Of a stretch of 64,000 bases of DNA, positions 15,227-42,677 are shown piece by piece. The position numbers were made by a program, and so were the translations under genes. The stretch is from NCBI GenBank assembly GCA_009392285.1, contig VFGU01000012.1:1-64000 (forward strand). The letters are read 5' to 3'. Within the stretch, counting starts at the first letter, position 1. Every line of letters begins with the position of its first letter. The DNA comes from SAR202 cluster bacterium. Lineage in GTDB: Bacteria; Chloroflexota; Dehalococcoidia; Lucifugimonadales; Lucifugimonadaceae. The notes under the pieces were generated by a model. That model was not told the origin of the DNA. It did no database searches and was given only the letters and a program-made list of their open reading frames with translations.

Positions 15227-15753
15227 AAGGATTTTGTCTAACAAAAGTTACTCTCAGCCTCTTTTTATTTGTTTCTTTTTTCGGAACAATTTATGCGGAT
15301 GAGCAGGGTCAAAATAACAATCAGATGGATATATCTGGAGATAAATATGATCTTAGGGTTGGGCACACGGCAAACCCAAAAGTAGGATATCTAGACCTAA
15401 CATTTCAAATTAATAGCAAGGCAAAAGAAACTCAAAAAAACAATTACAAAATATCGGTAATTGCAGAAAAAGGAGAAGAAAAATTTAAAACATTTGCGCT
15501 AAATACTTCCGACTACCCTGATATATATAAATGTGTGTTTGATTTAGAAAGAAGTGGCAATTGGATTTTCAAAACTAACATTTCTAATAATAATATTGAG
15601 GAAAATATTGAATTTTCCATTTACATTGAGGATAGGAATAGGGAGACGAGTCCATTTTCACCATCATTTTATTTATTTGCAATAATTTTCCTAATTATAT
15701 TTTTAGCTCCGTTGTATATTTTTAGAAAAGCTATATTCTATAACTTAAAGTAA
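15223..15753 (+). CDS. secreted/membrane-anchored small protein (signal peptide, beta-sandwich-like domain, C-terminal TM); non-canonical start suspected
   Basis: Track ORF begins at ATG 15325, but the same frame upstream encodes KGFCLTKVTLSLFLFVSFFGTIYADEQGQNNQ (signal-peptide-like) with no ATG/GTG/TTG; ATA at 15223 overlaps the kdgK stop and has GGGAG upstream. Confidence 0.55.
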   Translation: MKGFCLTKVTLSLFLFVSFFGTIYADEQGQNNNQMDISGDKYDLRVGHTANPKVGYLDLTFQINSKAKETQKNNYKISVIAEKGEEKFKTFALNTSDYPDIYKCVFDLERSGNWIFKTNISNNNIEENIEFSIYIEDRNRETSPFSPSFYLFAIIFLIIFLAPLYIFRKAIFYNLK

Positions 15754-15768
15754 AATTATAGGGGGGTT

Positions 15769-16968
15769 ATGCCTGGATTTAGAGTTGCCTTAGTAGGAGT
15801 GGGACAGCGAGGACTGCAACACCTTAAGGCTTTATGCGACTTACAAGAAGAAGAGTTAATAACAATAGAGGCTTTGGTCGATCCATTTAGCGAAAATTTA
15901 ACCTCTGAGAAAATTAACAAATATGTGCCAAAATACAACGATTCTAATATCAAATTGTTTACTGACTATGAAAAATTCCTGGATGAATGTGAAGTTGATG
16001 GAATATGGTTTGTGATTCCACCAAATCAGCATACAAATCAAATAGAAAGAGCAGCACAAAAGGGAATTGCCATTTTTGCTGAAAAGCCTCAAAGCCTGTT
16101 TTTAGACGAAATTTTTCCAATGAATGATGCTATAGAAAAATACAATGTTCCTTCGATTTGTGGATTCCAAATGGAGTATGATTCCTGGTATACAAAAATC
16201 AGAGAGTATCTTAATGATAAGTGGGTGGCTTCTATGACGATGATTAATTGTGGGGCTGTTGAAACTCATGGTGTAAAACATACGATGATTAAGAAAGATC
16301 AGGGACCTGAAAATCGCATATGGACAGCAGATAGAAAATGGTCAGGAACTTCTATGGTTGAGGCAGGAATACATCAGACCGACCTGATGAGATATTGGTC
16401 AAACGATGATATTAGTTGGGTACAATCTTCATACGTAGAAAGACCCTCAAAGGCAATTAATGAAGAAGGTGATAATCCCATCGCTTATCACGTAACCTAT
16501 GGATTCAAAAAAGGGGGAACAGGAACCTTAATTTTAACTAAACCGGCAGGGGTGTTTTATATGGAAAGGTATGACTATATTTTGACTGCAAAATCAATGA
16601 TTAAATTTGAGGACAACTTAATAGCCTATGGGGTAGAAGAAGACAACTACTCTATTGAAAAAGGCAGAAAACATTTTCAAACTAAAGATGTTTACAAAGA
16701 AAATGAAACGAGCAAAATTTTGGCAAAAGGTCCCCACAAAGACGCGATGGGACAACATAATACAAAATTAATTTCTGAAAATTTTGTAAGGTCAATAATA
16801 TTAAATAAACCTGAATTAAGAAAAAACTCATTTAAAAGTTCCATAAATTCATTATCGGCTGTACTAGCAGCGAACGTCTCTTCTTCTATAGGAGGGCAAA
16901 AAATTGATATTGATGAATTTGAATCATCTGCTAAATTTTCTCAATTTAGGGCAAAACCCAATCAATAG
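15769..16968 (+). CDS. Gfo/Idh/MocA-family oxidoreductase
   Basis: N-terminal Rossmann FRVALVGVGQRGLQHLKAL, AEKPQSLFLDE (EKP motif). Confidence 0.92.
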   Translation: MPGFRVALVGVGQRGLQHLKALCDLQEEELITIEALVDPFSENLTSEKINKYVPKYNDSNIKLFTDYEKFLDECEVDGIWFVIPPNQHTNQIERAAQKGIAIFAEKPQSLFLDEIFPMNDAIEKYNVPSICGFQMEYDSWYTKIREYLNDKWVASMTMINCGAVETHGVKHTMIKKDQGPENRIWTADRKWSGTSMVEAGIHQTDLMRYWSNDDISWVQSSYVERPSKAINEEGDNPIAYHVTYGFKKGGTGTLILTKPAGVFYMERYDYILTAKSMIKFEDNLIAYGVEEDNYSIEKGRKHFQTKDVYKENETSKILAKGPHKDAMGQHNTKLISENFVRSIILNKPELRKNSFKSSINSLSAVLAANVSSSIGGQKIDIDEFESSAKFSQFRAKPNQ

Positions 16969-16971
16969 AAG

Positions 16972-18132
16972 ATGAAAATAAAGTCAGTTAAATTATGCTC
17001 TTTTCCCGTTAGAGGAGGGACTGAATGGACAACTCTTGAAATTCATTCCGATTCGGGTTTTTCAGGTTTTTCTGAACTTACGATGTCAAATTATTCTCTA
17101 AAAAACAACCTTTTAAACTTATTGAGTGACTTGTTAAAAAAAATTCAAGGCAAGGATTTAATTAATGACGAACAAATTAAAAAATTATTAAACACCGACA
17201 AAGAAAATTATGATCTTGCTTTAGCAACTTCTATTAGTGGAATAAGATCTGCCTGCTCAGATATATTTGCAAAGGAAAGTTCAAAACCATTAAAAGAATA
17301 TCTACAATCCAAATATTCATTAAAAAGCACCTTATTAAGTTTCGTTAGCCTATACGCTAATATTAATAGGTCGCTTCTTCCAGATGATGATGGCCCCATA
17401 AATAGAAGCCCAGAATCCTTTTCAAAGATGGCAAAAAGGGCTCTTGACGACGGATTTTCAAATATTAAGTGTGCTCCTTTTGATAACTATCCTAACAAAT
17501 ACTATAGAGACAATAGGTTTATTGAGGAAGGTTTAGCAAGAATAAAGGAAATAAAAAAATTATTAACTAAAGATAAAAATCTATTCGTCGATTGTCATTC
17601 AAAATTTGATGAAAAGAGTTCCTTAATTGTTGAGGAGGAATTATTCAAATTGGGCATAAGTTGGTTCGAGGAACCAATGAACCCTAAAACATTCCCTCAA
17701 GAATTAAAGGAAATAAAAAAAAGAATTAAAGGAAACCTTGTAGGTGGTGAAGAATTTTATGGCATGGAAAGATTTTCAGAATTATTAAAATCAAAAACGC
17801 TAGATATATTGATGCCAGATGTAAAATACTGCGGAGGAATAGAAGAGGCCGTAAAGATCGGGATGAGTTTAGATAAAATTTCAAATGGATCTTTCTCAAT
17901 ACATTGTCCTTCTGGTCCTATATCTTTACTAGGGAGCGCTCATGTCACATCTGCGCTTAACTCTGAACTGCCCCTAGAGCATGCAGTATATGAAATTTCA
18001 GACAGATCGGACCACCTGCACCCTCCAGAAAAAATAAAACAAGGTAAATTATTTTTCCCTAGAGGAAACGGACTTGGAGCAAAACCAAATTATAAAAAAA
18101 ATCATGAAGTTCTCATGGAAATGAACTTGTGA
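16972..18132 (+). CDS. enolase-superfamily (mandelate racemase/muconate lactonizing) protein
   Basis: KNLFVDCHSKFDE, SWFEEPMNP, VGGEEFYGMERF, DILMPDVKYCGGIEEA metal-ligand pattern. Confidence 0.88.
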   Translation: MKIKSVKLCSFPVRGGTEWTTLEIHSDSGFSGFSELTMSNYSLKNNLLNLLSDLLKKIQGKDLINDEQIKKLLNTDKENYDLALATSISGIRSACSDIFAKESSKPLKEYLQSKYSLKSTLLSFVSLYANINRSLLPDDDGPINRSPESFSKMAKRALDDGFSNIKCAPFDNYPNKYYRDNRFIEEGLARIKEIKKLLTKDKNLFVDCHSKFDEKSSLIVEEELFKLGISWFEEPMNPKTFPQELKEIKKRIKGNLVGGEEFYGMERFSELLKSKTLDILMPDVKYCGGIEEAVKIGMSLDKISNGSFSIHCPSGPISLLGSAHVTSALNSELPLEHAVYEISDRSDHLHPPEKIKQGKLFFPRGNGLGAKPNYKKNHEVLMEMNL

Positions 18133-22735: not shown

Positions 22736-22768
22736 AAAAAGGGCTGGATTATTCCCGCCCTTTTTATT
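22736..22768 (+). terminator. bidirectional intrinsic terminator between convergent groEL and DUF5343 gene
   Basis: AAAAAGGGC...GCCCTTTTT 9-bp arms with A/T tracts on both sides. Confidence 0.88.
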
Positions 22769-23429
22769 TTTTGTCTTCTTTTTTGAGGCCCTCGTATAAA
22801 TTAACCATCCCGTCCATCCATGCCTTTTGAACTTGAGGTTCCCACGACGGATCAAAATCAGGATATTTTTCTAAGATTTTAGAAATAACAGTCTCACTTA
22901 TCCCAAGCTCTTCGGGTCTAGGGGAATTGCTTTGCTTAGGCGGAGCAACTTTCTCGGGCCTCTTTCCATTAGAAAGTCCGTGCCTTCTGGCAAGAATGTA
23001 GGCAGACAACTCTATACCTGCGTCTTGGCAAGCTTGAATAAAGAAGAGCTGGCACTTACTCAAAACCCCCTCATTAATTCCAAAAGATCTGAATGCTTCA
23101 TTAAACTGAGACCGTGTAGCCCTTTTTAGGTCAACCTCAAATATTGGCTTATACTTATCTTTTAAAATTATTCTAAGGTGATTTCGTCTTTCAGACCCAA
23201 CAGAAGCCACAAGCTCTTCAAGGGCTCTTACTGGGGTGCCCTCTTCGTTGATAAGGTCAAGGTTTTTCAGGGCGGTCATCAGTTGCTGCCCAGACGTGCC
23301 GGAATATCTTTGCCCCCATACGCTTCTATCTATCCTCGCCGGTATTCCCTCGCTCAGTAGTTCCAAAAAATTTCGGAATGTCCTATAAGAAACATAGGGC
23401 AGGCCAACTTTACCTAATTTTCTCTGCAT
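22764..23429 (-). CDS. DUF5343-family protein
   Basis: LPYVSYRTFRNFLELLSEGIPARIDRSVWGQRYSGTSGQQLMTALKNLDLINEEGTP resembles the DUF5343 N-terminal signature. Confidence 0.7.
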   Translation of the reverse strand: MQRKLGKVGLPYVSYRTFRNFLELLSEGIPARIDRSVWGQRYSGTSGQQLMTALKNLDLINEEGTPVRALEELVASVGSERRNHLRIILKDKYKPIFEVDLKRATRSQFNEAFRSFGINEGVLSKCQLFFIQACQDAGIELSAYILARRHGLSNGKRPEKVAPPKQSNSPRPEELGISETVISKILEKYPDFDPSWEPQVQKAWMDGMVNLYEGLKKEDKK

Positions 23430-23474
23430 TTCAAATATAAATCTTTATTAATTATGTATATCAATTCTACCACT

Positions 23475-23502
23475 CATTCCAAAAATAATCATTTTTAGAA
23501 TG
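23475..23502. promoter_or_regulatory. palindromic operator-like element between divergent DUF5343 and ParB-like genes
   Basis: CATTCCAAAAAT-AATC-ATTTTTAGAATG: 12-nt arms, one mismatch; additional GGAATG half-site at 23541. Confidence 0.55.
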
Positions 23503-23590
23503 CACAAATTTCCCAACAGGACAATATTTGAAACTACTTTTCGGAATGTTCAAAATTATGAATATAAATCAGAATATTTAGGAGGTTATA

Positions 23591-24505
23591 TTGAAAATAA
23601 AGATATTAAACATTGAATTCGATGCTGAGTCCACGGCAAAACTTGAATCAAGAAAGGAAACTAAAAGGTGGTCCAAGTTTTCTAACCAGTTTATTCCTGT
23701 TGTAGACAAGATTTCGAGTAAAAAATACAAACTTGTCTCAGGTGCTGAAAAAATACACCTCGCCACCGAAAAAGGCGAAGAGTCTGTTGAGTGTAATCTA
23801 ACAGACGACCTCACCTCAGAGCAAAAAGGGGCCCTTGATCTTAGGCTTTTATACCAAAGTTCAGACATATGTCCCATTAATTTAGGGGAGGAGTTTCTTT
23901 CTTTTAGAGAAAAATTCTCTGTCACCCAACAAGAATTAGCAAAAAAGACTGGAATAACCCCTGGAACAATACATCACTATGAAAGTTTAATAAAAACATT
24001 AGTGCCCTCATTAAAAGAGCATGTCAAACAGAAAAACTTAACCTTTAAGGAAGCAAGAAGCATAGCGGACATAGAGGATCATGAAAAACAATTTGAACTT
24101 GCAAAGCCATTCCTAGAAGGAATATTAAGTTCGGTGCATGTTGAAAAAATTGTTTCTCTAGCAAAAAAACACCCCAAAGTGGAGGTAAAAACAATTATTG
24201 AAAGTGTCACCAAGGGTAAGCCTATTGTTGAAAAAGTGATTGCAGAGACAGCAGAGGAAGATGCGACACAGGAAAATTCTATAGACTTCACTACAATCGA
24301 GTCTAGAATCCTAGATTTATCCACCGAAATAGACCTAATCCAATCAGAAGAAATCCCAGAGTTTAAAAGGCTTAAACTGATAAGTTCTTTAAGGATTTTG
24401 CAGGGCAGAGCCCAATTAGCGCTTACTTCGTTAAACACAAAAGCCAGTGGGTTCAGCCTATTAGGAGAAGACATAAAAAAAAGAAGTTCAGGGAAAATAA
24501 AATAG
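23591..24505 (+). CDS. ParB-like N-terminal domain plus KorB/ParB-type HTH protein (orphan, no parA neighbour)
   Basis: DLRLLYQSSDICPINLGEEFLSFREKFSVTQQELAKKTGITPGTIHHYESLI...LKEHVKQKNLTFKEARSIADI matches ParB/KorB HTH layout. Confidence 0.65.
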   Translation: MKIKILNIEFDAESTAKLESRKETKRWSKFSNQFIPVVDKISSKKYKLVSGAEKIHLATEKGEESVECNLTDDLTSEQKGALDLRLLYQSSDICPINLGEEFLSFREKFSVTQQELAKKTGITPGTIHHYESLIKTLVPSLKEHVKQKNLTFKEARSIADIEDHEKQFELAKPFLEGILSSVHVEKIVSLAKKHPKVEVKTIIESVTKGKPIVEKVIAETAEEDATQENSIDFTTIESRILDLSTEIDLIQSEEIPEFKRLKLISSLRILQGRAQLALTSLNTKASGFSLLGEDIKKRSSGKIK

Positions 24506-26703: not shown

Positions 26704-27269
26704 CCGTAAACTTTGTTTTTTATAATATAGTCGAAAACTTTTGGGGGCACAAAGCGTCCCCAATCTTTTTCCATTTTAATGTTCTCTCTTATAGTAGAAC
26801 TTGAAACATCCATTTTATCAACATCGATCCAACTAAAATCTTTATTCAAATCTTTGCCTCCAATAAAATTTCTTGGCGCAACCAAGACTTTGACCTTTGA
26901 CAACAACTCACCACTGTCCTTCCATTCTCGTATTTGGGTTGCGCTATCCTCTCCAACAATTAAATGCACCAAACTCCCCTCTTGGCTCTCCGCAATTATA
27001 TCATTTACTGTGTCAATCGAGCGGCTCACCCCACCCCTTTCGATATCAGCACTAGAAACCTCCAAAAAATTGCACCCTTCAATGGCTAGTTTGCACATTT
27101 TTATTCTTTGGGTTGGCTTAGCTTTGGGGTTAGACTTTTGCTCCCAGGTTAAATTTAAAGGAGAAATAACAACCTTGTCTAAAGAGTATTGGTGGTGTGC
27201 CTCTTTGGCTATTTTTATGTGACCTAGATGTATTGGGTCAAAGCTTCCCCCAAATATTCCTATCTTCAT
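26700..27269 (-). CDS. nadD: nicotinate-nucleotide adenylyltransferase
   Basis: MKIGIFGGSFDPIHLGHI, SSSTIRENI. Confidence 0.95.
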   Translation of the reverse strand: MKIGIFGGSFDPIHLGHIKIAKEAHHQYSLDKVVISPLNLTWEQKSNPKAKPTQRIKMCKLAIEGCNFLEVSSADIERGGVSRSIDTVNDIIAESQEGSLVHLIVGEDSATQIREWKDSGELLSKVKVLVAPRNFIGGKDLNKDFSWIDVDKMDVSSSTIRENIKMEKDWGRFVPPKVFDYIIKNKVYG

Positions 27270-28468
27270 TTAAATTCCATTTCAACCTCACCAAATTTAA
27301 TTATTGATCCCTTTGTCACCCCAGCGTCCTCAAAAGCTTTTAGGTAGCCCGATTTATTCAAAAGGTTATGGAACTGAAGTTGAGCCTCTGGCTTACTTAG
27401 GTTGCTTCCTTTAGCGATCCTTACTAATTTATTATCAAATATCTCCACCACACCTCCAGAATAAGAAAAATTGGGTCTCTCAAAACCTTTTATTATGGGC
27501 GGCTCATGAATAAATACCTCTTGCACGGAAGGCGCAGTTTCTTTGGGCGGCTCCTTAGTTAGTTTTGCTATCAAACTTTTCAGTTTACCAACATCAATTT
27601 TCCCATCTATAACACAAAAGACCCTGTCCTGTTCAATGTCTAAAATTGGCTCTTTTGTAGTTTCTTCAAACCTATTAAGAATTAATATTTTTGCACACGA
27701 GGCAGGTGTTTTGCCAGTTATATTTTGCATCATCTGTTCATATACCTCTTTTGTGTTGTCATTATGGTTTATTGTCACTACTAACACCTTGATGTCAGCC
27801 AATAGGTGGGCGTATTTTGAAGCTTTTTTATAATTAATGAAGTCAGGGATCTCAATTATCTTAATATTTTCAATGTCACTTTTTATTTCCGCTATGTTTG
27901 GTGTTGTTGTTGTAAATGAATAATCTGCCTCTTTTGCAGCCATATTTGTTAATTTGTTGAGAATGTAAGTTTTTCCTGAGTTAGACAAACCAAAAAGAGC
28001 CACTTCTGGTAAGTCTTTTATTTCCAACTCAACACCTACCCTAACCCCACCACCTCCAGACTCTGCTAATAAAGGTTCTTGGTTAGTGGAATTTTTAAAG
28101 GTTCTATTTCCTCTCCCACCATCTCCTCCTCTCAATAAAGTTACATATTTGTTATTTATTACTACAGTTTCTTTCCCAGAAACTTTTATCAGGGTGTTAA
28201 CTGGCACATCTATTATTAAATCTTCTCCCTTTTTTCCATTTTTTTTTGACTTACCCCCGTTTCCACCATCTCCAGACTTTAAAACCTGGTCTTCCTCGAA
28301 AGATCTTAAATCCCAAATATTCCTATTTGGCCTAAATACAATGTCTCCCCCGTTTCCACCATCTCCTCCATCTGGTCCTCCCCTAGGCGCAAACTTTTCT
28401 TTTCTGAAAGAAACCCAACCATCTCCTCCATCTCCAGTTATTAATATTAATTTAACTTTTGTTTTCAT
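27266..28468 (-). CDS. obg: Obg/CgtA-family protein with degenerate G domain
   Basis: Gly-rich Obg fold (GDGGDGWVSFRKEKFAPRGGPDGGDGGNGGD) and OCT domain intact; G1 retained as GLSNSGKT, G3/G4 motifs lost. Confidence 0.9.
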   Translation of the reverse strand: MKTKVKLILITGDGGDGWVSFRKEKFAPRGGPDGGDGGNGGDIVFRPNRNIWDLRSFEEDQVLKSGDGGNGGKSKKNGKKGEDLIIDVPVNTLIKVSGKETVVINNKYVTLLRGGDGGRGNRTFKNSTNQEPLLAESGGGGVRVGVELEIKDLPEVALFGLSNSGKTYILNKLTNMAAKEADYSFTTTTPNIAEIKSDIENIKIIEIPDFINYKKASKYAHLLADIKVLVVTINHNDNTKEVYEQMMQNITGKTPASCAKILILNRFEETTKEPILDIEQDRVFCVIDGKIDVGKLKSLIAKLTKEPPKETAPSVQEVFIHEPPIIKGFERPNFSYSGGVVEIFDNKLVRIAKGSNLSKPEAQLQFHNLLNKSGYLKAFEDAGVTKGSIIKFGEVEMEFK

Positions 28469-28517
28469 TTTTATAATAAAAATAATAAATATGTTACTTA
28501 TGTTAACTGTGTTATTT

Positions 28518-28541
28518 ATAATTAAAAAATTTTTTAATTAT
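28518..28541. repeat. 24-bp perfect AT palindrome
   Basis: ATAATTAAAAAATTTTTTAATTAT. Confidence 0.9.
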
Positions 28542-28546
28542 TCACA
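28538..28546 (+). promoter_or_regulatory. DnaA-box-like site TTATTCACA
   Basis: Matches TTWTNCACA; in obg-dnaA intergenic region. Confidence 0.5.
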
Positions 28547-28646
28547 AATAATTTATTGGACTGTTAAAAATATCTAAAAAAATTAATACACTTTTTGTTT
28601 TTGGGAGAATATAACAAACAAATAACAATAAATAACAAGTATGATG

Positions 28647-29933
28647 TTAAAAGATTTTAAGTGAGTTCCTTATTTTTTGTAGGTTGTAGCGTAAATCAAA
28701 GTCAGAGTCTATAGACCCTTCCACAAACCTCACCGCGCTAAGGACAGTGGCATGATTTTTGTTACCAAGCAGGTTGCCAGATGCGGCCAGAGTTAAGTTG
28801 AGGTCTTTATTCAAAATAAAGCTAGAAATTCTTCTGGCATAAACAATTTGTGCGCTCCTGCTGTTGCTTTTTATTTCTTCTTCAGACACTCCTAGGTGAG
28901 TCGCTACCTCCTTTAGGACCTCGGAGGGCATAGGCTTGTTGTTAATCTTTATGTCGTCAAAACCTATAATCATGGATTTGGCGCTATCTAGGCTAATTTC
29001 CTCTTCTTTTAGTTGAGACATAGCCTTTAGCCGATTTAAGATAGACTCAATTTGCCTTATATTAACTTGGCAGAGTTGCGCCACATAATCTATGATTTCA
29101 CTGTTAATTTTTAAGTTTAGTCTCTCCGCTTTAAACTCAATAATTGCAACCTTTGTTTCATAGTCTGGGGGCTGGATGTCAACAACTAAGCCTGACTGAA
29201 AACGGCTAGTTAGCCTAGCCTCTACTTCAACTAATCTTGAAGGGTCGTCGCCAGCAAGAATAATTTTTTTATTTTCTAAATAAAGATCATTAAAGGTGTG
29301 GAAGAAGCCCTCCTGGGTCTGCGCCTTTCCACTTAAAAACTGAATATCGTCAACGATTAGAGCGTCACAAGAGCGGTATTCAGACCTAAAAAACTCTGTC
29401 TTCTTTTCTTTTATCGCTTTAATAAATTCATTTGTAAACCTCTCTGAAGTAACATATTTTACTTTTAGGCCCTGCTTTTGAAGAGAGTTGTGAATAGATA
29501 AGAGTAGGTGTGTCTTTCCGAGCCCTACATTTGAATAAACATACAAAGGGTTAAAGTCAGGCTCCGAAAAGTCTGAGAATTGTTTTGAGGCAGCAAAGGC
29601 TAATTCGTTGGACGGGCCCACAATAAAAGAGTCAAAGGTGTATTCTTTGTTTTTTGGCTTTGGTCCGGTATTAGTTTTTATTTTTGTAGCGTGGCGATTT
29701 GTTATTGTGACCTTTATATTAGACCCAGAAGATTCTTCCACAGCCCTTTTTATGTCAGGCATTAGCCTTTCATTAAGCATTTTTAATGCGAAGGGGCTGT
29801 CAACGCTTAGGGTTAATAATCCCTCATGGTATGAGACGGGCTCGATTGGCAAGATCCACATTTTAAAATTGATTGAGTTTACCTCTTCTTCAAGGATCCT
29901 CAAAGACTCTGACCATAAACTTTTTATATCCAA
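28647..29933 (-). CDS. dnaA: chromosomal replication initiator DnaA
   Basis: 428 aa; NVGLGKTHLLLSIHN, DALIVDDIQFLSGK, domain IV LLGNKNHATVLSAV; TTG start. Confidence 0.97.
   Translation of the reverse strand: MDIKSLWSESLRILEEEVNSINFKMWILPIEPVSYHEGLLTLSVDSPFALKMLNERLMPDIKRAVEESSGSNIKVTITNRHATKIKTNTGPKPKNKEYTFDSFIVGPSNELAFAASKQFSDFSEPDFNPLYVYSNVGLGKTHLLLSIHNSLQKQGLKVKYVTSERFTNEFIKAIKEKKTEFFRSEYRSCDALIVDDIQFLSGKAQTQEGFFHTFNDLYLENKKIILAGDDPSRLVEVEARLTSRFQSGLVVDIQPPDYETKVAIIEFKAERLNLKINSEIIDYVAQLCQVNIRQIESILNRLKAMSQLKEEEISLDSAKSMIIGFDDIKINNKPMPSEVLKEVATHLGVSEEEIKSNSRSAQIVYARRISSFILNKDLNLTLAASGNLLGNKNHATVLSAVRFVEGSIDSDFDLRYNLQKIRNSLKIF

Positions 29934-40172: not shown

Positions 40173-42677
<2,505 letters not shown>

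Follow-up and report, generated by a model that had tools for sequence, protein, structure and literature searches.

A probable replication origin with candidate variant DnaA boxes between dnaA and obg in a SAR202 cluster bacterium

In the basal unwinding system (BUS) of bacterial origins, DnaA boxes face a run of DnaA-trios over a short spacer, and the trios lie on the 5'-tail strand (PMC8287927, PMC6669920). A DnaA-trio has the form 3'-[G/A]A[T/A]-5' (PMC7561715), its complement reads YTD (PMC8235120), and the definition of the BUS permits a species-specific box, for which binding is then the required proof (PMC8287927). In C. difficile, oriC2 contains CTACTACTATTACTACTA (PMC7561715). The base-contacting residues of DnaA are 399, 423, 432-435 and 438-439 (PMC5043019); D433 is highly conserved and is important for box position 7 (PMC8235120). 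The full-text literature that we searched did not describe an origin for any SAR202-type bacterium.

We analysed the first 64 kb (the window) of a 269-kb contig from a 751-kb metagenome-assembled genome (MAG), which is 56% complete and is referred to as G000. The host is presumably marine, to judge from the isolates of the closest Dehalococcoidia MAGs. As dnaA and obg both lie on the minus strand, the gap between them is 3' of dnaA and 5' of obg, and it is an AT-rich intergenic region adjoining dnaA. We believe that this gap is very probably the chromosomal replication origin, or at least its unwinding half, and that it would act like a basal unwinding system of the Bacillus type. Its best reading, from the sequence, is an oriC in which the core of the DnaA box has changed from TNCACA to TAACA in this genus.

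A first-pass annotation had proposed a candidate origin at this place. Its description held: the gap next to dnaA is very AT-rich (15.2% GC), and the palindrome, the match to a DnaA box (TTATTCACA) and the TGTTA and TAACA pentamers are where it put them (Table 1). It missed two elements, namely the triplet run beside obg and an extra TAACA across the dnaA stop codon. As a side observation, EIPDF replaces DxPG and LNRFE replaces NKxD in the Obg protein, which scores below the NCBIfam cut-offs; the Obg of G006, a member of the same genus, looks intact.

Table 1. Features of the dnaA-obg region of G000 (positions in the 64-kb window)
Feature	Position	Strand	Observation
Candidate oriC, dnaA(3')-obg(5') intergenic region	28469..28646	-	178 bp, 15% GC; canonical-box gap in family/order relatives
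obg/cgtA, 400 aa, flanks trios	27266..28468	-	GTPase motifs look eroded
DnaA-trio run TTA TTA TTT TTA TTA (other strand 3'-AAT-5' type repeats), adjoining obg start	28474..28488	-	YTD fit in register
Spacer between last box and trios	28489..28491	-	exactly 3 bp in 9/9 genomes; sequence varies, length fixed
Proximal array, three abutting 9-mers facing trios: TAAATAACA (28510-28518), CAGTTAACA (28501-28509), TAAGTAACA (28492-28500); proposed variant DnaA boxes (TGTTA at 28492, 28501, 28510)	28492..28518	-	7 genomes of genus have the exact array a single time, at this site; 9/9 retain the last repeat
Perfect palindrome, 24 bp, ATAATTAAAAAATTTTTTAATTAT, between the two arrays	28518..28541		intact in G000, G008; 22 bp in G002; degenerate in G005; absent in other five
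Single canonical-type DnaA box TTATTCACA, facing dnaA	28538..28546	+	exact in G000, G008, G002; one mismatch in G005
Distal array, TAACA at 28612, 28623, 28633 (10-11 bp steps), facing dnaA	28608..28637	+	place and orientation match the ~21-bp-spaced canonical box array of relatives
Extra TAACA across dnaA stop codon (TAA+CA)	28645..28649	-	stop TAA then CA in G000, G008, G002, G005, G009, G004, G001
dnaA, 428 aa	28647..29933	-	ATPase and ssDNA-binding residues intact; DNA-contact residues N433, A435, S439 altered (E. coli numbering)

We searched nine genomes of the same genus for dnaA and obg. Eight hold dnaA, and in all eight obg adjoins it, across a gap of 169-240 bp with 13-15% GC; counts over nine genomes given here take in G000. 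Read on the dnaA strand, the gap of the genus begins with two or three outward TTGTTA-type repeats 10-11 bp apart at the dnaA end, followed by a variable middle. On the obg side, TAACA recurs at intervals of exactly 9 bp, usually three times; three variable bases follow, and then five YTW triplets, the last of which lies near the obg start. G003 has the last two TAACA only and G006 the last one only, and the spacer and the triplets are kept in all nine. At the dnaA stop codon, G003 has ATAACA immediately past the stop and G006 is without a stop-associated TAACA.

The triplets agree with DnaA-trios in sequence, strand and register. A five-triplet run follows the 3-bp spacer in every one of the nine genomes, and 42 of the 45 triplets fit YTD in register, compared with 2 of 45 at an offset of one or two bases; the background is 0.26. 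In G005, the run reads TTA TTA CTA CTA TTA. Thus, at least three 3'-NAN-5' trios lie on the correct strand and no more than 16 bp from a putative species-specific box. The strand and the geometry match those of the published BUS (PMC8287927, PMC6669920, PMC7561715). These results support the view that the trios are conserved more than the boxes.

The TAACA repeats stand out from the composition of the gap. The gap of G000 holds eight TAACA/TGTTA, one of which overlaps the dnaA stop, where 2.07 are expected; only one of 2000 dinucleotide shuffles scored as high, and no other 180-bp window of the 269-kb contig has more than five. In an unbiased count, TAACA was the top 5-mer both in eight gaps of the genus (z 12.8) and in four diverse ones (z 9.9). 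Seven genomes of the genus have one perfect match each to the composite pattern TAACA-N4-TAACA-N4-TAACA-N3-TTATTA, in every case in the dnaA-obg gap, and there was no other among the 100 genomes searched. When two mismatches were allowed, the pattern had three scattered matches outside the genus in these 100 genomes, and a reversed control had four. In G006, the gap has three TAACA/TGTTA (1.86 expected) and the full array is absent; a TTCACA lies about 20 bp ahead of the last TAACA repeat. Its gap is a possible intermediate between canonical and TAACA boxes.

The palindrome is the longest in the window (the next longest has 18 bp), consists entirely of A and T, and is joined to the lone canonical-type box TTATTCACA. 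When the gap was shuffled 5000 times, a palindrome of at least 24 bp arose once. Such a perfect palindrome in DNA of very low GC content could suggest that the gap is no more than AT-rich noise between genes, or that it forms a terminator hairpin for dnaA. We regard this as extremely unlikely, since the number of repeats, their spacing and the palindrome all beat composition-matched shuffles, the repeats stay conserved although the sequence between them diverges, and the palindrome is without a G+C-rich stem. Indeed, a terminator scan found no intrinsic terminator (a G+C-rich stem followed by a T run) in the gap, and the gap matched no Rfam family. Plasmid-type iterons were also considered and rejected: the neighbours are chromosomal housekeeping genes, and we saw no plasmid initiator.

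Thus, of the suggestion in the first-pass annotation that the region resembles an origin or iterons rather than a terminator, the origin is best supported: the repeats are conserved in the genus, related genera carry clustered canonical boxes in the same gap, the trios are in the right strand and register, and the scan found no terminator. The iterons do not stand, because the most likely role for the TAACA/TGTTA repeats is that of DnaA boxes in this genus. As for the symmetry that it described, the two arrays point outward, but they are not mirror images because their spacing differs (9 bp versus 10-11 bp). The palindrome exists but is confined to one sublineage. Together with its single TTATTCACA box, it is best seen as a later, sublineage-specific accessory outside the origin core, and perhaps serves as a helically unstable spacer.

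In the family and order relatives, most of the genomes examined keep the dnaA-obg order, and their gap bears canonical DnaA boxes and trios. Near dnaA there is a leftward canonical array with a spacing of about 21 bp (at 100/122/142 in G026, 175/197/217 in G015, 33/54/74 in G011 and 32/54/74 in G030); near obg there is a rightward box followed by YTD triplets (TTTCCACGCGC-TTACTGTTACTG in G031, CTCTCCACGCGC-TTACTGTTATTG in G022 and CTTATCACA-CTATTATTTTTATTA in G025). The parts of G010 and G020 that we sampled yielded a single cluster of at least four boxes within 500 bp, namely the one in the gap. Sequence comparison thus establishes the architecture, its conservation at the same locus, and the presence of canonical boxes in the corresponding gap of relatives. 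Since the gap of the relatives carries canonical boxes, this locus is of the origin type across the wider group, and what has changed in the study genus is the boxes rather than the layout. The check on repeat conservation proposed with the original annotation comes out in favour of its origin within the genus, where the repeats are conserved.

As the gap includes the 5' region of obg, part of its conservation could be promoter-related. One could go further and propose that the gap is simply a promoter or leader of obg, in which the repeats bind an unknown transcription factor and have no role in replication. The gap is directly 5' of obg and has a single weak match of the promoter type on the obg strand; that one match is below the shuffle mean of 2.4, however, and this proposal would explain neither the canonical DnaA boxes at the same position in relatives nor a triplet run at a fixed 3-bp spacing. 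We consider it very unlikely.

The boxes next to the trios are where G000 departs from the known type. The 9-mers TAAGTAACA and CAGTTAACA have 4-5 mismatches to TTATCCACA, and the gap has no cluster matching TTATCCACA within 16 bp of the trios in which the best box has two mismatches or fewer. The sole exact canonical-type box, TTATTCACA, points away from the trios. Thus, the expected clustering of DnaA boxes is present in the gaps of relatives as a canonical cluster, but not in the trio-proximal boxes of G000. Because of these 4-5 mismatches, we infer, rather than read directly, that DnaA binds the TAACA 9-mers. We would class the gap as a variant of a known origin type, since canonical boxes fail at the trio-proximal positions while the trios, the position, the orientation and the conservation hold.

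We found no exact canonical-box cluster elsewhere on the 269-kb contig. Dense one-mismatch matches at 240.1 kb lie inside the coding sequence of yidC, and those of G006 at 38.8-39.2 kb overlap the fmt 5' end and the fmt-dnaA intergenic region; we set both aside. In many bacteria, yidC-jag lies beside dnaA. Here, this pair (15599-17162 of locus L131; about 239.6-241.2 kb of the contig) is about 210 kb from dnaA. Because the incompleteness of the MAG limits a direct search, an origin elsewhere is possible.

Skew gave a mixed picture. Raw cumulative GC skew, calculated for the 269-kb contig and two congener contigs, was discarded as evidence because it follows gene strand. Strand-corrected skew at fourfold sites had no replication-linked flip in G000, G001, G002 or G003; as there is no flipping replication term, the GC-skew test is inapplicable to these four genomes. 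Strand asymmetry seems to have been lost in their sublineage, whereas G006, G010 and G020 have it. In G006, skew changes across the gap from -0.30 to +0.16 for plus-strand genes and from -0.07 to -0.32 for minus-strand genes, and the minimum of the corrected cumulative skew, at 40,562, is the end of dnaA (90% bootstrap interval 25-43 kb). In G020, whose 3.09-Mb contig starts at dnaA and was assumed to be circular, the ori-type switch lies near 3.02 Mb, which puts it about 75 kb before dnaA. In G010, the nearest ori-type switch is about 80-95 kb from the gap and several others make the chromosome a mosaic. The coarse skew of G041 is flat. The skew check that had been suggested thus places a switch at the gap in G006, agrees only approximately in two complete relatives, and is uninformative in G000.

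The switches of G010 and G020, 75-95 kb 5' of dnaA and, in G020, beside a parB homologue, raise the possibility that the gap titrates DnaA or controls dnaA and obg, with replication starting at another site no more than about 100 kb away, such as one near parB. This seems unlikely to us, since in-register DnaA-trios mark an unwinding site, the sampled parts of these genomes had no comparable box cluster near the two switches, and skew switches at the gap in G006. In addition, relatives differ by inversions in the order of the genes around dnaA, and such inversions can shift skew switches: the pyrE-nadD-obg-dnaA-fmt-dehydratase-uvrA block (26.1-39.1 kb) is inverted between lpd and gyrB compared with G006. 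It is plausible that an inversion of this kind displaced the switch from the gap. We therefore continue to favour an origin in the dnaA-obg gap, against which count the lack of a skew flip there in G000, G001, G002 and G003, the distant switches of G010 and G020, and the absence of the full array from G006.

At 22764-24505, a ParB-like protein with a ParB HTH domain (23591-24505, plus strand) stands beside a DUF5343-like protein; the two form a conserved pair near dnaA in relatives, and the G020 skew switch falls there. In G010, a very long repeat array with a CRISPR-like look and the frames SIPARAGEP/VYPRACGGA lies next to rpoC (L227, G010:C1:1690001-1710000).

In the DnaA protein of the genus, the Walker A/B, arginine finger, sensor 2 and ssDNA (ISM) residues K178, D235, R285, R334 and I211 are present in 9/9 genomes, and the oligomerisation residues are intact. 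Among the canonical DNA contacts R399, D433, H434, T435 and H439, only R399 and H434 are kept. All nine members of the genus have D433N; an aspartate is found in 19 of 21 relatives and in 62 of 63 readable loci outside. In the genus, residue 435 is A, V or S, and residue 439, which is mostly Y in relatives, is S, N or Q. Substitutions in the recognition helix of DnaA probably accompanied the change to a TAACA core. We rejected the idea that D433N alone sets this core, because G013 and G023 have N433 yet carry TTCAC-type boxes, and because D433 contacts box position 7 (PMC8235120), which is unchanged. As these two genomes share N433 with TTCAC-type boxes, the case that box and DnaA changed together is suggestive. 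Separately, G000 encodes a second protein with a DnaA ATPase domain (L002, G000:C13:6189-6590; 283 aa, PF00308 at 25 bits), possibly Hda- or DnaC-like.

We lean towards the view that the code between initiator and origin was rewritten in one genus of streamlined marine Dehalococcoidia: TTATNCACA would have given way to abutting 9-mers with a TAACA core, matched by the changes at D433, T435 and H439, with G006, where TTCACA stands beside the last TAACA box, as the intermediate.

Based on these comparisons, we propose a model for initiation at the gap. Domain IV of DnaA would bind the TAACA-type boxes at both ends, the three abutting ones on the obg side and the phased ones on the dnaA side. A filament of DnaA-ATP may then grow out from the trio-proximal box and cross the fixed 3-bp spacer onto the strand with the 3'-AAT/GAT-5' triplets. 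By stretching, this filament would melt the AT-rich stretch beside obg, where the helicase could be loaded. If so, a likely origin is now placed in an uncultured marine lineage in which both a canonical-box search and GC skew fail in G000. The canonical relatives, the intermediate congener and the fully changed species would form a natural series for studying how an initiator and its sites change together.

Among the closest counterparts are the canonical-box dnaA-obg gaps of other Dehalococcoidia (G026, G015, G011, G046 and G044). They resemble G000 in gene order, in the leftward array near dnaA, and in the rightward box and triplets near obg; their boxes are TTATCCACA/TTTTCCACA with a spacing of about 21 bp, and most of the gaps are longer and higher in GC than those of the study genus. 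The incC BUS of B. subtilis (DnaA-boxes 6/7 and trios) is likewise downstream of dnaA, with tandem boxes that face a trinucleotide run over a short spacer, following the same strand logic, and a box-distal second array. Unlike incC, G000 has three abutting 9-mers of the TAACA type in place of TTATNCACA, its spacer is 3 bp and not GC-rich, and its neighbour is obg, not dnaN. Lineage-specific DnaA boxes are known from the Epsilonproteobacteria, which have a TTCAC core, and from Thermotoga, which has a 12-mer. There, and probably in G000 too, divergence of the box accompanies changes in the recognition helix of domain IV. The study genus differs from both in having A for the core C of NCAC, giving TAACA, and in having N at position 433, where D is near-universal elsewhere.
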